Shown one piece after another: positions 5,604 to 37,496 of a stretch of DNA of 64,000 bases. Position numbers and translations under genes: made by a program. The stretch's first letter is position 1. Every line of letters starts with the position of its first letter. The notes beneath the pieces were generated by a model. It was given only the letters and a program-made list of their open reading frames with translations. It had not been told where the DNA came from and did not search any database. The stretch is taken from assembly GCF_900106835.1 (NCBI RefSeq), contig NZ_FNNR01000009.1, positions 1-64,000 of the forward strand. The letters run 5' to 3'. This DNA is from Arthrobacter sp. cf158. Its GTDB lineage: Bacteria > Actinomycetota > Actinomycetes > Actinomycetales > Micrococcaceae.

Positions 5604-7434
5604 AGCTGCTCGCATGCCAAGGGTGCTTGGGATGATCCAGGGGTGTGTCGCTGCTGTGGGCCGCTCCGTGATGCAGTTGCAGGGCGCTGTGAATGAGTGG
5701 GAAGTGGCTGAACGCCTGCGGGGTGTTGCCAAGCTGCCGGTGGGTTCTTGGATCCCACTCCTCGCTGAGCAGGCCAACATCGTTGCGCAGGGTGAGCAGC
5801 CGCTCAAAAAGTGCGGTTGCTTCGGCTGACCGGCCGATTCCCAGCAGGGCGTCCACCAGCCAGAAGGAGCATGCAAGGAAGACGCCTTCGTCGCCGGGGA
5901 GTCCGTCATGGCCGGACTGGGTCCGGTACCGCATGACCATGCCGTCCTCCGTCAGTCCCCGCTGGATGGCATCCACCGTCCCGGCCACGCGTGGATGCCG
6001 GTGTGGAAGGAAGCCGACACGGGGAACCAGGAGCAGGCTCGCGTCCAGTTCCTTGCTGCCGTAGGCCTGGACAAAGCTGTTGAGATCCTCGTCGAACCCT
6101 TTGGTCATGACGTCGTTGTGGATTTCGCTGCGGAGGGCAGCCCACCTGTCAGCGGGGCCCGGCAGCCCGGAGGTCCGGATGCCTTTGACCATGCGATCAG
6201 CAGCCACCCACGCCATTACTTTGGAGTGGGTGAAGTGCTGCCTTGGCCCGCGGACTTCCCACAGCCCATTGTCCGGCTGGTCCCAGGCTCCCTCGAGGTA
6301 CTCCATCAACGCGACCTGGAGGTCCCAGGAATTGTCCACGGCACCATCCGGTGCTGCCGCCCTGGTGAGCGAGAGTCCGTCCAGGACTTCGCCCCACACA
6401 TCCAGTTGCAGCTGCGGCGCAGCGGCATTGCCGGTCCGGACCGGTTGTGAGCCTTCGTAACCGGACAACCAGGGGATCTCTGCCTCCGGAAGCCTCCTGG
6501 CGCCGTCGAGCCCGTACACAATCTGGAGCTCGGACGGGTCTCCGGCGATAGCCCGCAACAGCCAATCCCGCCACGCCGCGGCCTCTTCCGTGTAGCCGGC
6601 GGCGAGGAGGGACTGCAGTGTCAGTGTGGCGTCGCGCAGCCAGCAGTACCGGTAATCCCAGTTGCGCGGTCCGCCGATTTGTTCGGGCAACGACGTGGTG
6701 GCTGCGGCCACAATGCCGCCGGTGGGCGCGTACGTCAGTGCTTTGAGGGTGATCAGGGACCTCTCTACAGGCTCCTTGTACTTGCCGGTGATCTCGCTGC
6801 GGGCAATCCATTCCAACCAGAACGACTCCGTGGCTTCAAGTGCCCGCAGGGGATCGATCCTTCGCGGTTCAGGCTCGTGGCTTGGAGCCCACCGCAGGAC
6901 GAACGGGACTTTTTGGCCGGCGCGGACAGTGAAATCGCTGAAGGTTTTCTTGTCGCGGCCTTCCAAGGGGGCGTGCGTGGTGAGATACGCCGAGTCGGGT
7001 CCGGCCACGGCGCTGATGCCGTGGCTGCTGTGCCGGACCCAGGGCACCACGCTGCCGTAGTCGAAGCGGAGCACCAACTCCATGTGCATGTCCACTGAGC
7101 CGGAGAGTCCTTCGACGATTCGGACAAGGTCCACGGCCTCATCACGGACGGGCATGAAGTCGGTGACGCGGACGGATCCGCCGTCCACTTCCCACTCCGT
7201 CTGGAGGACCAGGGTGTCCTCGCGGTAGTAGCGGCGTGTGCAGTCGGCTTGGGCGGCAGCGGCGCCGGCAGGGGCCAGAAGCCAGCGGCCGGCGTCGGGG
7301 GTGTGCAGGAGTGCCGCGAAGCAGGATGGAGAGTCGAAACGCGGCAGGCACATCCAGTCGATCGAGCCACTGCGCCCCACCAGTGCTGCCGTGTTTAGAT
7401 CCCCGATGATCGCGTAGTCCTCAATCCTGGCCAT
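5572..7434 (-). CDS. GH15 family glycoside hydrolase (trehalase/glucoamylase type)
   Basis: A 620-residue cytoplasmic protein. The N-terminal beta-sandwich domain begins IEDYAIIGDLNTAALVGRSG and includes SIDWMCLPRFDSPSCFA. The catalytic (alpha/alpha)6 domain carries WDYRYCWLRDA (259-269), the first candidate catalytic Glu near E349 (DVWGE) and the second in SEEWDP (558/559). GNTPQAFSH near the end is typical of the family. Actinobacterial members of this layout include trehalases that split trehalose to two glucoses; glucoamylase or dextranase activity is the alternative. It stands alone on this strand, with no trehalose synthesis genes in the window. Confidence 0.87.
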   Translation of the reverse strand: MARIEDYAIIGDLNTAALVGRSGSIDWMCLPRFDSPSCFAALLHTPDAGRWLLAPAGAAAAQADCTRRYYREDTLVLQTEWEVDGGSVRVTDFMPVRDEAVDLVRIVEGLSGSVDMHMELVLRFDYGSVVPWVRHSSHGISAVAGPDSAYLTTHAPLEGRDKKTFSDFTVRAGQKVPFVLRWAPSHEPEPRRIDPLRALEATESFWLEWIARSEITGKYKEPVERSLITLKALTYAPTGGIVAAATTSLPEQIGGPRNWDYRYCWLRDATLTLQSLLAAGYTEEAAAWRDWLLRAIAGDPSELQIVYGLDGARRLPEAEIPWLSGYEGSQPVRTGNAAAPQLQLDVWGEVLDGLSLTRAAAPDGAVDNSWDLQVALMEYLEGAWDQPDNGLWEVRGPRQHFTHSKVMAWVAADRMVKGIRTSGLPGPADRWAALRSEIHNDVMTKGFDEDLNSFVQAYGSKELDASLLLVPRVGFLPHRHPRVAGTVDAIQRGLTEDGMVMRYRTQSGHDGLPGDEGVFLACSFWLVDALLGIGRSAEATALFERLLTLRNDVGLLSEEWDPRTHRQLGNTPQAFSHFPLIHSALQLHHGAAHSSDTPLDHPKHPWHASSSTLRNDPRFR

Positions 7435-33144: not shown

Positions 33145-33513
33145 CTACACGCCTACCTTTACAACCGAAACGTCGACGGCGGCCGGCCGGGGGAGCAGGT
33201 GCCGCCGCACCGCTTCGGCTACTTCACGCGCCACGGCTGGAGCCGGACGGGACGTGCCCACCGCGATCCTGGTCTTCACGGCCAGCACTCCTGCCTCGTC
33301 CGTGAGGGTGATCAGGGCGGGAGTGTCTCCGGTGACCACGGACAACACAGCACCTGCGATGGACTGCCACAGCGGCTGGGCGGGGTAGACGGAACTGACA
33401 CCCTCCACGGACTGGACTACGCCGAGCAGCTGCTCGGCCAGGATGCCCAAGTCTGCCGAGGCGGCGGAAGCACTTGCGGGGGCTGCAGCCCCAACGTCCA
33501 TCGGCTCGGTCAT
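33145..33513 (-). CDS. Small Asp23-cluster protein, unknown function
   Basis: A 122-residue Ala/Val-rich protein without membrane segments. Its C-terminal half (TRPAPAVAREVAEAVRRHLL, then VDVSVVKVGV) has the alternating pattern of an Asp23-like helix and strand, but it is a distant member at best. Start overlaps the upstream gene stop by 4 bp, so it is translated as part of the sigma operon. Last gene of the cluster. Confidence 0.6.
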   Translation of the reverse strand: MTEPMDVGAAAPASASAASADLGILAEQLLGVVQSVEGVSSVYPAQPLWQSIAGAVLSVVTGDTPALITLTDEAGVLAVKTRIAVGTSRPAPAVAREVAEAVRRHLLPRPAAVDVSVVKVGV

Positions 33514-34118
33514 GGCTGCTCCTCGGTAGTGGCATCTGCGGGGCTTGCTGGGTGTGGTGGCTCCAGCACATCGGTGACAGTGATGTTGATGGCTTGAATG
33601 GTCAGTTCAGTTTGGACGGCCAGGGTCTCTGCCAGCTCCTGGCGGAGCGCGGCGGCACGTTCCTCCATGGGGTGTCCATACACCACTGCTATCTCCACTT
33701 CCACGGTGATGTCGGCGCCGGGGGTGGTGACATCGCCGTGCAGGCGGCACTTGCCGGCGGCTGTTCCCGGCAGGGCATCGGCCACGGAACGGATGAGTGC
33801 GGAGATGGAGCCCTCGGTTTCCCAGAGGGTGTCCTGAGGGTTGCCGGACTGCAAGGGAATGCTGCGTCCCGGCCGCAACTCCAGCCGGAGGTTGTCCAAG
33901 ATTGACTGCATCCAGTCGTCAGTGCCGGAGCCTGCCTCCGCCACGTCTGAGCTGAGCAATTCTCTCCCCAGCTCTGAGAGGTGGCGCAGCGAGGCCAACC
34001 CTGCCTGGCATTCGGGGCATGTTTCCACGTGGACGGGATCGGCAATCTGTCCGGTGTCCAGGTAGGCGCTTAGCTCTGCGAGGCTGTGGCCGCATTCGAG
34101 GGTGTCGCTGGTGTTCAT
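33510..34118 (-). CDS. Zinc-finger anti-sigma / Asp23-like fusion protein
   Basis: A 202-residue protein. The N-terminal 45 residues hold CGH and HVETCPEC, the HxxxCxxC signature of zinc anti-sigma (ZAS) domains. Residues about 125-190 (DVTTPGADITVEVEIAVVYG, then a helix and IQAINITVTDVLEPP) match the Asp23 core seen in the 36884 gene. It has no membrane segment. Start ATG 34118 overlaps the sigma stop (ATGA) and has GGAGGA six bases upstream; an ATG two codons earlier lacks spacing. Likely inhibits the adjacent sigma factor, with the Asp23 part linking it to the Asp23/AmaP-like layer (inference). Confidence 0.78.
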   Translation of the reverse strand: MNTSDTLECGHSLAELSAYLDTGQIADPVHVETCPECQAGLASLRHLSELGRELLSSDVAEAGSGTDDWMQSILDNLRLELRPGRSIPLQSGNPQDTLWETEGSISALIRSVADALPGTAAGKCRLHGDVTTPGADITVEVEIAVVYGHPMEERAAALRQELAETLAVQTELTIQAINITVTDVLEPPHPASPADATTEEQP

Positions 34119-34699
34119 CGCCATTCCTCCATGGTGCGCGCAAGAGTGATCCGTGCCCGGGCCAGGCGGCCGCGGACACTGGCTGGGCTGATGTTCAGTG
34201 TCAGCGCAATTTCCTCGTAGCTTTGGTCATTGAACTCCTTGAGCACCCAACAGCGCCGTTGTTCCTCCGGAAGCTTGGCGAGCGCCGCCTTCAGGGCCTC
34301 AATCCGGGAGCTGTTGACGGCGTTGGTTTCCGGGTCCTTGTTCTTGGGCCGGGAGTCGGGGTCCACTGCGTTTTCAACGGTGCCAAGGTCCGCGTGGTGG
34401 CGGCGTTTCCGGAGATGGTCGATGCTGCGGCTGCCAACGATGCGAAGCAACCAACCCTTCACCGCGGCCGGGTCCCGCAAGCCGTCCAGTTGTTTCCAGG
34501 CCTGGACGAGTGTCTCCTGGACGACGTCGTCGGCGTCGGCCAGTGAGCCGGTCAACCGACGGGCCGTGGCCCGCATCAGGGGGCCGTGGCGTCTGGCCAA
34601 GGCCTCGAAAGCGGCAGTGTCACCATCTGCGGCCCTGCCAGCCAGCAGGGCATCGGGAACCAGGTCCAGTTGGTGCTGCGCCGCGGGTGAACCAGTCAC
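34115..34699 (-). CDS. ECF-type RNA polymerase sigma factor
   Basis: A 194-residue sigma-70 family protein. Region 2 includes GDTAAFEALARRHGPLMRAT and DADDVVQETLVQAWKQ; region 4 is LKAALAKLPEEQRRCWVLKE, then YEEIALTLNISPASVRGRLA. GTG 34699 is chosen because homologues begin shortly before the DALLAGRAADGD block; AGGA is four bases upstream. The next gene overlaps it and carries a ZAS motif, the standard arrangement of an ECF factor with its anti-sigma. Probably directs envelope-stress genes including the Asp23 cluster. Confidence 0.9.
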   Translation of the reverse strand: MTGSPAAQHQLDLVPDALLAGRAADGDTAAFEALARRHGPLMRATARRLTGSLADADDVVQETLVQAWKQLDGLRDPAAVKGWLLRIVGSRSIDHLRKRRHHADLGTVENAVDPDSRPKNKDPETNAVNSSRIEALKAALAKLPEEQRRCWVLKEFNDQSYEEIALTLNISPASVRGRLARARITLARTMEEWR

Positions 34700-34767: not shown

Positions 34768-34803
34768 CCGGGACGGTTCCTGGTTTCGGTGGAACCGTCC
34801 CGG
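34768..34803 (-). terminator. Perfect 13-bp hairpin between csbD-like and sigma genes
   Basis: CCGGGACGGTTCC and GGAACCGTCCCGG flank a 10-base loop. No U-run follows on the minus strand. It could end or attenuate the upstream transcript, so the sigma pair may have its own promoter. Confidence 0.7.
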
Positions 34804-34811
34804 CCCAAGGA

Positions 34812-35042
34812 CTACTTGTTGGTGAAGCCGTCTTTGAGCTTCTGGGCGGCATCCTTGATGTTTTCGCTGATGTCCGCTGCAGCATCCTTGACCTTTTCGC
34901 CGGCCTGCTGGAGCTTGGCCTGGGCTTGGTCCTGCTGGCCTTCGCGCTCCAGGGACTGATCGCCGGTGAGCTTGCCTGCGCCTTCCTTGGCAGCGCCCAG
35001 GTGTTCGGTGGCTGCGTTGTTGATCTTGTCGTTGATACCCAT
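34812..35042 (-). CDS. CsbD family stress protein
   Basis: A 76-residue hydrophilic protein, rich in Ala, Glu, Gln and Lys. MGINDKINNAATEHLGAAKE and GKLTGDQSLEREGQ are the family core. AAAAGGGA lies five bases before ATG 35042. CsbD proteins are general-stress proteins of unknown mechanism; in Staphylococcus a CsbD gene accompanies asp23 (recalled). Confidence 0.88.
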   Translation of the reverse strand: MGINDKINNAATEHLGAAKEGAGKLTGDQSLEREGQQDQAQAKLQQAGEKVKDAAADISENIKDAAQKLKDGFTNK

Positions 35043-35138
35043 GGTGTTCCCTTTTCTTGTCATGCGCGGTCATTGAGGGCCGCGCCGGTTTTATTCGGTA
35101 AAGAAGCTGTTCTTACTGCGGTGACTGATAAAAGGCGG

Positions 35139-35744
35139 TCACCGGGCACGACGGGAACCGGACACCCTGCTCCGGGCGCCGCTGGTAATTCGGACCAGGA
35201 CCGGTAGTGGATGGCCCAGCCACGCGTCGATTCCCTGGACGAGTTCTTCGGCGGTATCGGCAAGCTCGCGGGGTGAGGTTCCCTTGCGGGCTTGCATGCG
35301 GAGCCGCAGCGCCGTCCCGCTCCGTGATTCCCAAGCGGAGACTGAGGCGGACAGAACGTCCTTGTTGCCCTTCAGAGCCTCGTGTACTGCTGCGGAGATG
35401 AGTCCCACATCCACCACGGTCCGGCCGTGGGTCCCGTCGGATTCCTCTGCCAGACGGGGTGTTCGTCCGCCACCCTGGGACGCCAGCCAGGCGGCGCTCA
35501 GTGCGGCGGCCAGCAGCAGGACTGCTATGCCGGCGGCCAGCCACCAGCTCCGCACCGGGCCAGGCCCGGGTGCATTGCCGGCAAGGCTGCGGGCTTGATC
35601 CGTCAGGTTGGAGCCAATTGCCCACCATGTGTCCGATGCTCCCGGCAGGGTTCCGGCCGCGATGAGTGCGGCTCCGGCGCCCAGAATTGCAAGGCCCACG
35701 ATGGTGAGCAGGATGCGGTTCACAGCACGGTTGGTCCTTCTCAT
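35139..35744 (-). CDS. DUF6286 / AmaP-like two-helix membrane protein
   Basis: A 201-residue protein with a hydrophobic helix at about 9-31 and a second at about 67-89, then a cytosolic domain with an Asp23/AmaP-like strand-helix pattern (TVVDVGLISAAVHEALKGNK). In Gram-positive bacteria AmaP anchors Asp23 to the membrane; that role is inferred. Starts with ATG overlapping the previous stop by 4 bp. Confidence 0.75.
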   Translation of the reverse strand: MRRTNRAVNRILLTIVGLAILGAGAALIAAGTLPGASDTWWAIGSNLTDQARSLAGNAPGPGPVRSWWLAAGIAVLLLAAALSAAWLASQGGGRTPRLAEESDGTHGRTVVDVGLISAAVHEALKGNKDVLSASVSAWESRSGTALRLRMQARKGTSPRELADTAEELVQGIDAWLGHPLPVLVRITSGARSRVSGSRRAR

Positions 35745-36322
35745 TGCCCCACGGCTCCTTCGTTCAGTACCCGTACGTTGCGCTTGACCGGCCGGTTCAG
35801 CCCATAGGCGGCCAGTTCGGCGTCGAGCGCTGTTGTGATGGACTCAAGGTGCAGCGGAACGCCCGACGTCGGACGCACCTGGACCCGTACGGACTGTCCA
35901 CCCACCGTGGTGGTCACCTGCCCTGGCGCCAGGCCAGCTGCTAGGCGGGTTTTGCTGGATACGGCGGCGGCGATGACGTCGTCATCCACCACCGTTGCCA
36001 TGCGGTGGCTGGCCAGGGCGCGCCTGGGCCGGCGTCCCTTGCCTACCGCCGTGCCGATCACCAGCAGCCCCAGAATCCCCAGGCCAACACCAGCGGCGGT
36101 CATGCCCGCCGGGATGGTGTTGGCAGGAAGGTCAAGCAGCCACTGCCGCAGTTGGGCCGGGCTTGCAAGCAGGGGCTGTTCCTTGAGGAGCCACAGCACG
36201 GATTCCAACGCCAGCCAGAGGAACGTGACCAGGAGGATGGAGGCGGCCACGATGGACGGGACTGACCTGGAAGAGTGCGTCTCCCGCCGGATCATGCGCC
36301 GGATACGTCGATCCTGCTTCAC
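35741..36322 (-). CDS. DUF6286 domain membrane protein (AmaP-like)
   Basis: A 193-residue protein, Arg-rich cytosolic start, helices at about 23-45 and 72-92, and a C-terminal soluble domain with VVDDDVIAAAVSSKTRLAAG and VQVRPTSGVPL. Same layout as the next gene, suggesting an ancient duplication. ATG overlaps the upstream stop by 4 bp. Confidence 0.75.
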   Translation of the reverse strand: MKQDRRIRRMIRRETHSSRSVPSIVAASILLVTFLWLALESVLWLLKEQPLLASPAQLRQWLLDLPANTIPAGMTAAGVGLGILGLLVIGTAVGKGRRPRRALASHRMATVVDDDVIAAAVSSKTRLAAGLAPGQVTTTVGGQSVRVQVRPTSGVPLHLESITTALDAELAAYGLNRPVKRNVRVLNEGAVGQ

Positions 36323-36699
36323 TGCACCCTCCTTTCCTTGGACTGGTTTTCCTTAAGCTGTGCCGGCTTTGCGCCGGTGAGCCGGATGTCTACCCGGCCG
36401 AGCTCCATGCCGGTGAGTTCCATGCTGCGGGCCACGAGTTCTGCCCGCGCAGCCTGTGCCTGGTCAAAAACGGTGGCTGCACCTTTCCGCGGCGCCAGGA
36501 GCGGCGGGAGCGCCAACTGGACCGAAAGCCGGACTCCCAGCTTTCCGGAGTCGTCTTCCAGGTCAGCGGTGACGTTGCTCCCACCCACTCCGAAAGCGCG
36601 TGCCGTCATGGTTTCCACCGTTTTGCGGAGCGCGGTGCGGGCAATCCGGGTGTGCCCGGCCCTTTTTTCGGATGCCGGGCCGCCGGCCTGGCTGGTCAT
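36319..36699 (-). CDS. Asp23-like short soluble protein
   Basis: A 126-residue protein. TRIARTALRKTVETMTARAF and VSVQL-type strands resemble the N- and C-terminal parts of Asp23 (Gls24) proteins, and MELGRVDIRLTG matches the INITITDI strand of the longer copy at 36884. ATG overlaps the 63-residue gene stop. Function presumed structural in the Asp23 layer. Confidence 0.65.
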   Translation of the reverse strand: MTSQAGGPASEKRAGHTRIARTALRKTVETMTARAFGVGGSNVTADLEDDSGKLGVRLSVQLALPPLLAPRKGAATVFDQAQAARAELVARSMELTGMELGRVDIRLTGAKPAQLKENQSKERRVQ

Positions 36700-36887
36700 G
36701 AGGAGGAGCGCTTGCCCCGCAGGGCATCCAGCACCCCGCCCAGGTCAAGCTTTCCCTCGGCGGAGCGGCCCAGCACAGCCCCGATTCCTACGAACAGCGC
36801 TGTCAGCAGCAGTCCCCAAAATCCGAAGGCCAGTCCGGCCAGTGCCAGGACCGCTCCTACGGCCATGCCGGTAACTGTGGGGCTCAT
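36696..36887 (-). CDS. Small two-helix membrane protein (DUF2273-like)
   Basis: A 63-residue protein, almost all one hydrophobic hairpin (MAVGAVLALAGLAFGFWGLL, then LFVGIGAVLGR) and a charged tail (GGVLDALRGKR). DUF2273 proteins sit between amaP and asp23 in Firmicutes, and this occupies the same slot. Overlaps both neighbours by 4 bp. Confidence 0.72.
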   Translation of the reverse strand: MSPTVTGMAVGAVLALAGLAFGFWGLLLTALFVGIGAVLGRSAEGKLDLGGVLDALRGKRSSS

Positions 36888-37390
36888 GCGACCCTCGGCT
36901 CACGGGTGGCGTCATCGGCCTCGGAGTCCTCGGACGGCACGTGGATGTCCGTGATGGTGATGTTCACTTCGGTGACTTCCATGCCCACCAGGTCTTCGAT
37001 GGCGGTGTACACGGCGTCGCGGGCGTTGTCTGCCACTTCCTGGAGCGGGTGCGGGTATTCAACAACCAGGGTGACGTCCACCGCCACCTGGGTCTGCCCA
37101 ACTTCCACGCTGACGCCCTGCGTGAGGTCCTTGTGTCCAACCTTTTCGCGGAGGTTTCCGATTGCGCGGGCCGCGCCGCCGCCCAGGGCGTGGACGCCGG
37201 GGATTTCCTGGATGGCGATGCCGGCGATCTTGGCTACGACGCCGTCAGCCACAGTGGTTGCTCCCCGGCCGTCCTTGCCCTTGTCCTGGGCTGTCAGGTC
37301 CCGTGCCGTCTTATCCTGTGCCGACGCCGGGGTGGCGGCCGGGGTGTTCTTTGCGGGGACGTCTGCGGGGGTGTGGGTCTGGATCGTCAT
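36884..37390 (-). CDS. Asp23/Gls24 family envelope stress protein
   Basis: A 168-residue protein. After a Thr/Ala/Lys-rich start comes the Asp23 core: TTVADGVVAKIAGIAIQEIP, then GVHALGG, VDVTLVVEYPHPLQEVADNA and VGMEVTEVNITITDIHVP. Asp23 is a soluble protein that polymerises at the membrane in stressed Staphylococcus. ATG 37390 has AGGAG eight bases upstream. It is the first gene of the overlapping operon. Confidence 0.9.
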   Translation of the reverse strand: MTIQTHTPADVPAKNTPAATPASAQDKTARDLTAQDKGKDGRGATTVADGVVAKIAGIAIQEIPGVHALGGGAARAIGNLREKVGHKDLTQGVSVEVGQTQVAVDVTLVVEYPHPLQEVADNARDAVYTAIEDLVGMEVTEVNITITDIHVPSEDSEADDATREPRVA

Positions 37391-37480
37391 GGCAATCACT
37401 CCTGTCCGTTGTGTGCGGCGTTCTTTTGCGCCGTCATGAATAGGACGTAGCCCGGCAGGGATTCCTCACGGTGAAATTTA

Positions 37481-37496
37481 TGTGAGCTGCATCACG
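37481..37496 (+). promoter_or_regulatory. CRP/GlxR-like site
   Basis: TGTGAGCTGCATCACG matches TGTGA-N6-TCACA at nine of ten conserved positions. It lies 24 bp upstream of operator site 3 and 106 bp before the DUF2264 gene. Suggests cAMP-linked catabolite control. Confidence 0.6.

Follow-up and report, generated by a model that had tools for sequence, protein, structure and literature searches.

The window, by which the whole analysed stretch of 64,000 nucleotides from Arthrobacter sp. cf158 is meant, carries on its minus strand an asp23 operon, a csbD-like gene and a module of three overlapping genes, the middle one of which encodes an unusual fusion protein. In the order in which they are read, the genes are as follows.

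36884 to 37399, minus strand: Asp23 protein, operon-specific paralog
36696 to 36887, minus strand: DUF2273 small membrane protein
36319 to 36699, minus strand: 126-aa protein, no strongly hydrophobic segment and no family above cut-off
35741 to 36322, minus strand: membrane protein, very weakly AmaP-like (12.8 bits, cut-off 55)
35139 to 35744, minus strand: AmaP-like membrane protein (22.4 bits, E 8e-5, cut-off 55)
34812 to 35063, minus strand: CsbD-like protein
34115 to 34699, minus strand: ECF sigma factor, 194 aa from a GTG start
33510 to 34124, minus strand: probable anti-sigma factor, putative class I anti-sigma domain and C-terminal Asp23 domain, 204 aa
33145 to 33513, minus strand: third module gene, 122 aa, with an ATGA overlap with the anti-sigma gene

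Gene order and conservation of the module

Both AmaP-like products, those of 35139 and 35741, contain strongly hydrophobic segments and both miss the curated cut-off of 55 of the AmaP model NF033218. The GTG start of the sigma gene was placed from homolog lengths, and the longest open frame extends to 34885. The stretch ATGGCGATGA contains the sigma stop together with both candidate ATGs of the fusion gene, which therefore shares 10 nt with the sigma gene from the first ATG and 4 nt from the second; the overlap of the start with the sigma stop, which a preliminary description of this DNA had pointed out, is thus visible in the window and is conserved among loci. The length of 202 residues given there holds if the second ATG is the start, but the full open reading frame of 33510 to 34124 encodes 204 residues. 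The fusion protein has no membrane segment, as had been stated: its 19-residue hydropathy maximum is 0.91, while the three membrane proteins of the operon reach 2.2–2.5 by the same measure.

The coupling to an ECF sigma gene, also part of that description, proved to be very general, as the sigma gene directly overlaps the fusion gene in 86 of 88 distinct loci under an automatic rule (by 10 nt in 75 loci and by 4 nt in 11), and an overlapping sigma frame was seen by inspection in the remaining two, L106 and L112. Among the 39 named loci, which come from Arthrobacter, Paenarthrobacter, Pseudarthrobacter, Acaricomes, Microbacterium and unclassified Microbacteriaceae, the sigma gene lies immediately 5′ of the fusion gene in every case. 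In 29 of these 39 loci the order is asp23, DUF2273, the 126-aa gene, the two AmaP-like genes, csbD, sigma, anti-sigma and third gene; within these 29, csbD is present in 24, and the third gene of L081 was recognized by profile only. Two of the named loci, L058 and L061, end at a contig edge. In the four loci of Microbacteriaceae, the asp23 operon lies 3′ of the module in L080 and L082 and is divergent in L083 and L084. The remaining four of the 39 loci, L075, L076, L078 and L086, have no asp23 operon within the 6 kb fetched on either side. The fusion protein is therefore genetically fixed to the ECF sigma gene and, in most loci, to the asp23 operon, and the module is present in several families of the class.

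Plasmids also carry these genes. The sigma/anti-sigma/third-gene module and the asp23 operon occur on a 754 kb plasmid of Arthrobacter sp. ERGS1:01 (L182) and on a 358 kb plasmid of Streptomyces anulatus (L183); on the latter the arrangement is divergent and the fusion protein is annotated as Asp23/Gls24 family envelope stress response protein. In L079 (Arthrobacter sp. OVS8, 6001–6998), the anti-sigma gene is broken into two frames beside a sigma frame of normal length, which represents either a natural inactivation or a sequencing error. The gap between csbD and the sigma gene contains a strong hairpin with 11-bp arms according to single-sequence folding (34770 to 34801, minus strand); across 25 such regions the sequences differ, and strong hairpins recur in most of them, those of L059, L061, L063 and L085 being weak. 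This hairpin perhaps sets the sigma and anti-sigma factors below the level of the scaffold proteins.

The asp23 gene of the operon is not the only one of its kind. With an E cut-off of 1e-8 for homologs, a single asp23 gene is present in each of 20 genomes of the same genus in which the fusion protein has no match, and two are present in each of the three module-bearing genomes tested. The second asp23 locus of the window's own genome lies on another contig (G000 contig 8, 22008–22929; L002, L005, L157) and has no promoter motif of the kind described below; it is this sort of asp23 that all 20 module-less genomes possess.

The third gene belongs to the sigma/anti-sigma module: BLAST finds it in 33 of the 39 named loci and a profile search in the remaining six, and on the S. 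anulatus plasmid there is a weak match (E 0.04) in the same place. In a wider set of 54 rows, in which some genomes occur twice, its profile found no match in 15 and reached only E 0.001–0.1 in 12 more. No Pfam family matches the 122-aa product above cut-off. Profile comparison gave a weak similarity to the anti-sigma protein (E 5e-4, probability 31%) and no significant similarity to Asp23 (probability 3%). The third protein may regulate the sigma/anti-sigma pair.

Domain composition of the fusion protein

Two domains make up the fusion protein, and both are supported by profile comparison, in agreement with the earlier proposal that a soluble protein combines an anti-sigma-type domain with an Asp23 domain.

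33867 to 34124, minus strand: anti-sigma domain, residues 1–86, with four predicted helices and the CHCC ligands C11, H32, C36 and C39
33564 to 33863, minus strand: Asp23 domain, residues 88–187, b-b-a-b-b-a-b in the predicted model

The zinc anti-sigma signature HVETCPEC was correctly recognized in the preliminary description; it occupies residues 32–39 and has the form H-x3-C-x2-C, and C11 is a likely fourth zinc ligand. All four ligands, C-H-C-C, are retained by 74 of the 86 distinct orthologs (sets were cut at 50–55 bits and then de-duplicated, from 115 to 86 rows for this count). The other 12 have lost the histidine; seven of them depart from C-H-C-C at three of the four ligand positions, and C11 is replaced by H in two of these seven. 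These seven orthologs, all from a single taxonomic family (f4), retain the sigma gene and the Asp23 part; the family is taken to be Microbacteriaceae because its member L090 shares N-terminal sequence with the named Microbacterium locus L082. Not all members of the family thus have the zinc site, and the changed ligands of one clade make a redox switch at this site improbable as the general mechanism.

The relationship of the N-terminal domain to zinc anti-sigma factors was followed at the level of profiles. With Pfam zf-HC2 (PF13490), the window protein scores 13.7 bits and does not reach the curated cut-off of 22.2, and weak matches occur in 24 of 38 family members, the best at E 0.008. When the domain was compared by hhalign with a profile of 24 zf-HC2 domains, the probability was 94% and E was 1.4e-7 over residues 10–80; of the 26 matches found in six genomes, these 24 score above the curated cut-off, and about five of the 24 resemble the zinc domains that end sigma factors rather than separate anti-sigma proteins. 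The probability falls to 23% against six RsrA-like zinc domains alone, which counts against the best explanation, and is 91% against the remaining 18 domains. The profile score of 39.7 lies above every one of 60 column shuffles that keep the ligands (31.2 at most) and of 60 full shuffles (17.6 at most), and control profiles of the third gene, Asp23 and the sigma factor score 11–16 against the zf-HC2 profile. The spacing C-x9-Y-L-D from the first cysteine to Y-L-D is the same in the zf-HC2 protein of L187, which is taken to be RsrA-like, and other zf-HC2 proteins are off by one residue.

Structure prediction with AlphaFold2 places helices at residues 15–24, 30–35, 37–64 and 70–83 in the whole protein (mean pLDDT 86.6), and the same four helices are obtained from the N-terminal domain alone (mean pLDDT 82.2; third helix 37–64/65). 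It has been reported that class I anti-sigma domains consist of a three-helix bundle, a linker and a fourth helix (PMC7406223, available text), and the predicted order 1-2-3-linker-4 of the fusion protein is this same layout. A fold search with the N-terminal model retrieved no anti-sigma structure at significance (best E 2.8, best Z 2.6), and the PDB search with the full-length profile was headed by 9o8u_D, an unrelated-looking chain (E 0.014), both of which count against the best explanation. Second in the PDB search was chain 3hug_B (E 0.028), matched over the zinc motif and helix 3 and labelled in the PDB as a probable conserved membrane protein; we take 3hug to be the SigL–RslA complex and this chain to be RslA, the anti-sigma factor of M. 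tuberculosis SigL. Taken together, profile comparison, helix order and ligands give the first 85 residues the appearance of a zinc-type domain of the class I anti-sigma factors. Paired covariation between sigma and anti-sigma proteins (84 pairs, Neff 52) is too shallow to use; with this depth, pairings of helix 4 with sigma region 2 are enriched 2.2–2.7 fold, as expected, those of helix 1 with region 4 are not enriched, those of helix 1 with region 2 are enriched 3.6–5.7 fold, and the Asp23 domain takes part in both top pairs.

The likeness of the C-terminal part to the Asp23 protein of 36884, noted at the outset, was borne out by profile comparison (probability 95%, E 2e-8, residues 136–193). 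Pfam Asp23 (PF03780) matches residues 136–186 with 28.7 bits and E 1.8e-6, barely above the cut-off of 28. Of the two HMM searches that had been suggested for the fusion protein, the one with Asp23 passed the Pfam cut-off and the one with zf-HC2 stayed under it, yet the profile comparison for the latter was significant. Ten orthologs were also scanned with Pfam Asp23: three are above cut-off, six match below it, and L039 gives no match. In L159 the match covers positions 3–107 of the 108 of the Asp23 profile at 41.5 bits, above cut-off, and in L103 it covers the same positions at 23.4 bits, below cut-off. The predicted model shows the C-terminal part as a whole alpha/beta domain. Since L159 matches nearly the full profile and the model contains a whole domain, the Asp23 region must be more than a terminal core: the preliminary description was right in recognizing Asp23 at the end of the protein but drew it too small, and the Asp23 domain is complete but divergent.

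In fold searches with the whole model only the C-terminal domain was matched, the top structures being the C-terminal domains of cation transporters, and residues 103–186 match MamM with Z 11.0 and rmsd 2.0 over 75 residues. The match is read as a common alpha/beta arrangement and not as a sign of metal transport. No Asp23 structure was found among PDB sequences with the profile of the operon's Asp23.

A putative promoter upstream of asp23

Two conserved elements lie upstream of the asp23 gene of the operon.

37481 to 37496, minus strand: CRP-like box TGTGA-N6-TCAC (in the window CGTGA-N6-TCACA), just upstream of the -35 element
37441 to 37470, minus strand: putative ECF-type promoter CGTGA[CG]-N17-CGTC[CT]TA, by pattern

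They emerged from an alignment of the upstream regions of asp23, in which a GTGA-N6-TCAC palindrome is followed by CGTG and, at a constant spacing from it, C[GA]TC in 27 of 27 rows; 29 loci had been submitted, L056, L073 and L081 were dropped as the anchor was not found, and the 27 rows include the window. Such spacing and a CGTC -10 element are typical of ECF promoters. An earlier candidate for the -35 element, GGAA[TC], occurs in 7 of 34 upstream regions of asp23 and 1 of 38 of the sigma gene and was replaced by the CGTGA[CG]-N17-CGTC pattern of the alignment. As the CRP-like box lies upstream of the promoter, a second regulator, of the CRP/GlxR type, may act on the operon.

Of the named Micrococcaceae loci, 29 have a linked operon; the pattern GTGA[CG]-N17-CGTC[CT] is exact in 26 of them and is altered, near-matching, in L074, L077 and L081. 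Among four loci of Microbacteriaceae, CGTGA[CG]-N17-CGTC[CT] is found within two mismatches in three (L082, L083, L084) and is not recognized within this limit in L080. In three genomes of the A. agilis group with an unlinked operon (L176–L178), a two-mismatch promoter precedes one asp23 copy, and a partial CRP-like box stands at the same spacing to it; in 13 further loci from across the class, the motif with N16 is present in three (L158–L160) and most of the others have none. Upstream of the ubiquitous asp23 paralog, the motif is found in 0 of 24 regions even when one mismatch is allowed, and the exact CRP-like box likewise in 0 of 24, against 3 of 4 exact motifs upstream of the operon asp23 in the same comparison.

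A search of whole genomes with the exact 30-base pattern gives a single match in the window's own genome. Across 15 module-bearing genomes it gives 13 exact matches, spread over 12 genomes; 11 of the matches are at the operon by coordinates, and the backward-read control has nine. For 20 module-less genomes the number is three, with 13 in the control. Given these control counts, a single match has little weight, and the claim is carried by position and conservation. In genome G092 the motif stands at the asp23 operon 155 kb away from the sigma and anti-sigma genes, which is the arrangement that a trans-acting sigma factor would need. The promoter travels with the asp23 operon, and by this association the sigma factor of 34115 to 34699 is the candidate to read the promoter at 37441 to 37470.

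Proposed regulation and relation to known systems

An anti-sigma function of the fusion protein in some form is very probable, as three anti-sigma readings together add up to it. Among them, we lean towards a soluble anti-sigma factor whose Asp23 domain would read, or join, the layer formed by the Asp23 and AmaP-like proteins of the same operon. The comparisons establish the domain anatomy, the fixed pairing of the genes, the absence of a membrane segment and the promoter's staying with the operon; we infer that the fusion protein binds and inhibits its sigma factor, that this sigma factor reads the promoter, and that the fusion protein contacts the Asp23 layer. The four-helix N-terminal domain would keep the sigma factor off RNA polymerase, and the Asp23 domain would be the input, docking on or co-assembling with the Asp23 layer, which the AmaP-like membrane proteins of the operon would tether beneath the cell membrane. 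Envelope stress would alter this layer and release the sigma factor, and the freed sigma factor would transcribe the operon from the promoter at 37441 to 37470, so that both the layer and its own inhibitor are rebuilt in a feedback loop. A stricter form, which we put forward tentatively and regard as somewhat doubtful, is that the membrane-lining polymer gates the sigma factor directly, with the anti-sigma factor built into the Asp23 layer and the third protein as the release partner; damage to the layer would then free the sigma factor, and the layer would be made again. If true, this would be an assembly-state sensor that works without a transmembrane anti-sigma factor, a protease or zinc.

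The third gene also gives rise to an explanation by partner switching, in which the third protein or free Asp23 of the operon binds the Asp23 domain as an anti-anti-sigma factor and displaces the sigma factor. Its presence in 39 of 39 named loci, the weak match on the S. anulatus plasmid (E 0.04) and the weak profile similarity between third protein and anti-sigma protein (E 5e-4, probability 31%) fit such an arrangement, but the likeness of the third protein to Asp23 is not significant (probability 3%), and 15 of the 54 rows have no match to the third gene and 12 more match only at E 0.001–0.1, so that we consider it unlikely. A thiol-redox anti-sigma factor of the RsrA/ChrR type, whose zinc site senses oxidation while the Asp23 domain merely places or stabilizes the protein, appears more unlikely still. 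It would agree with the intact C11, H32, C36 and C39 of 74 of 86 distinct orthologs, and the available text of PMC7406223 reports that the zinc motif is enriched in soluble class I anti-sigma factors (~72%) and that cytoplasmic class I anti-sigma factors are linked to redox sensing; against it, the 12 of 86 orthologs that lack the histidine, including the seven with three changed positions, have kept both sigma gene and Asp23 domain, and the only target seen is a set of envelope-scaffold genes, not thiol genes.

It is very unlikely that the protein is no anti-sigma factor at all but an accessory structural protein of the Asp23 family, with an N-terminal zinc hairpin that has another role and a sigma gene that came to be co-transcribed by chance as the operon grew. 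The zf-HC2 score below cut-off, the N-terminal model without an anti-sigma fold match and the shallow covariation (84 pairs, Neff 52) are in keeping with this, whereas the zf-HC2 profile match lies above all shuffles and the sigma gene overlap is found in 86 of 88 loci, even where no asp23 operon is nearby. The preferred reading of an anti-sigma factor with an Asp23 input has a wider meaning: the cells of these soil actinobacteria may read the state of the Asp23 scaffold that lines their membrane in order to decide when to rebuild the lining, and given an Asp23-bearing anti-sigma factor together with a known sigma factor and promoter, sigma activity could serve as a readout of what the layer senses. 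According to the available text of PMC6954212, it was still unclear in 2020 what Asp23 does at the molecular level.

The preliminary description had expected a new way of connecting an envelope scaffold to transcription, which holds only in part. The promoter, the third gene and the broad distribution of the module in the class go beyond that description. It has been reported in a 2022 review (PMC8999054, available text) that sigma genes of the groups ECF286 and ECF292 adjoin soluble proteins of the Asp23 family predicted to be anti-sigma factors; the groups are cited there from Casas-Pastor et al. 2021, and the zinc-domain groups ECF270/271 are listed apart from them. The description of ECF286/ECF292 in the available text of this review differs from the present system in that it mentions no zinc anti-sigma domain, promoter or third gene; the fusion anatomy may already be stated in Casas-Pastor et al. 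2021. No further paper on the pairing of ECF sigma factors with Asp23-family proteins was found among the matches listed from the open-access literature. In view of this earlier prediction, we regard the fusion protein as a variant of the soluble class I anti-sigma systems that had been predicted in outline.

It has been reported that in S. aureus Asp23 is fixed under the membrane by AmaP from the same operon and that loss of Asp23 or AmaP strongly induces the cell-wall stress response (PMC6954212, available text), which supports a link between layer and signalling, though in a different phylum. As in S. aureus, the asp23, DUF2273 and AmaP-like genes here share one operon; unlike there, an ECF sigma gene and a gene for an Asp23-bearing anti-sigma factor are added. 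The fusion protein resembles RslA (3hug) in a weak profile match over the zinc motif and helix 3 (E 0.028), whereas RslA is labelled a membrane protein in the PDB and no Asp23 match was seen in it. The soluble zinc anti-sigma factors ChrR, RsrA and RshA, which are of the redox type, have a C-terminal cupin domain or nothing in that place. Like these, the fusion protein lacks a membrane segment, has ligands of the form C...H-x3-C-x2-C and a four-helix N-terminal domain in the predicted model, and is encoded beside its sigma gene; unlike them, it has an Asp23 domain at its C-terminus, and its zinc ligands are changed in one clade.
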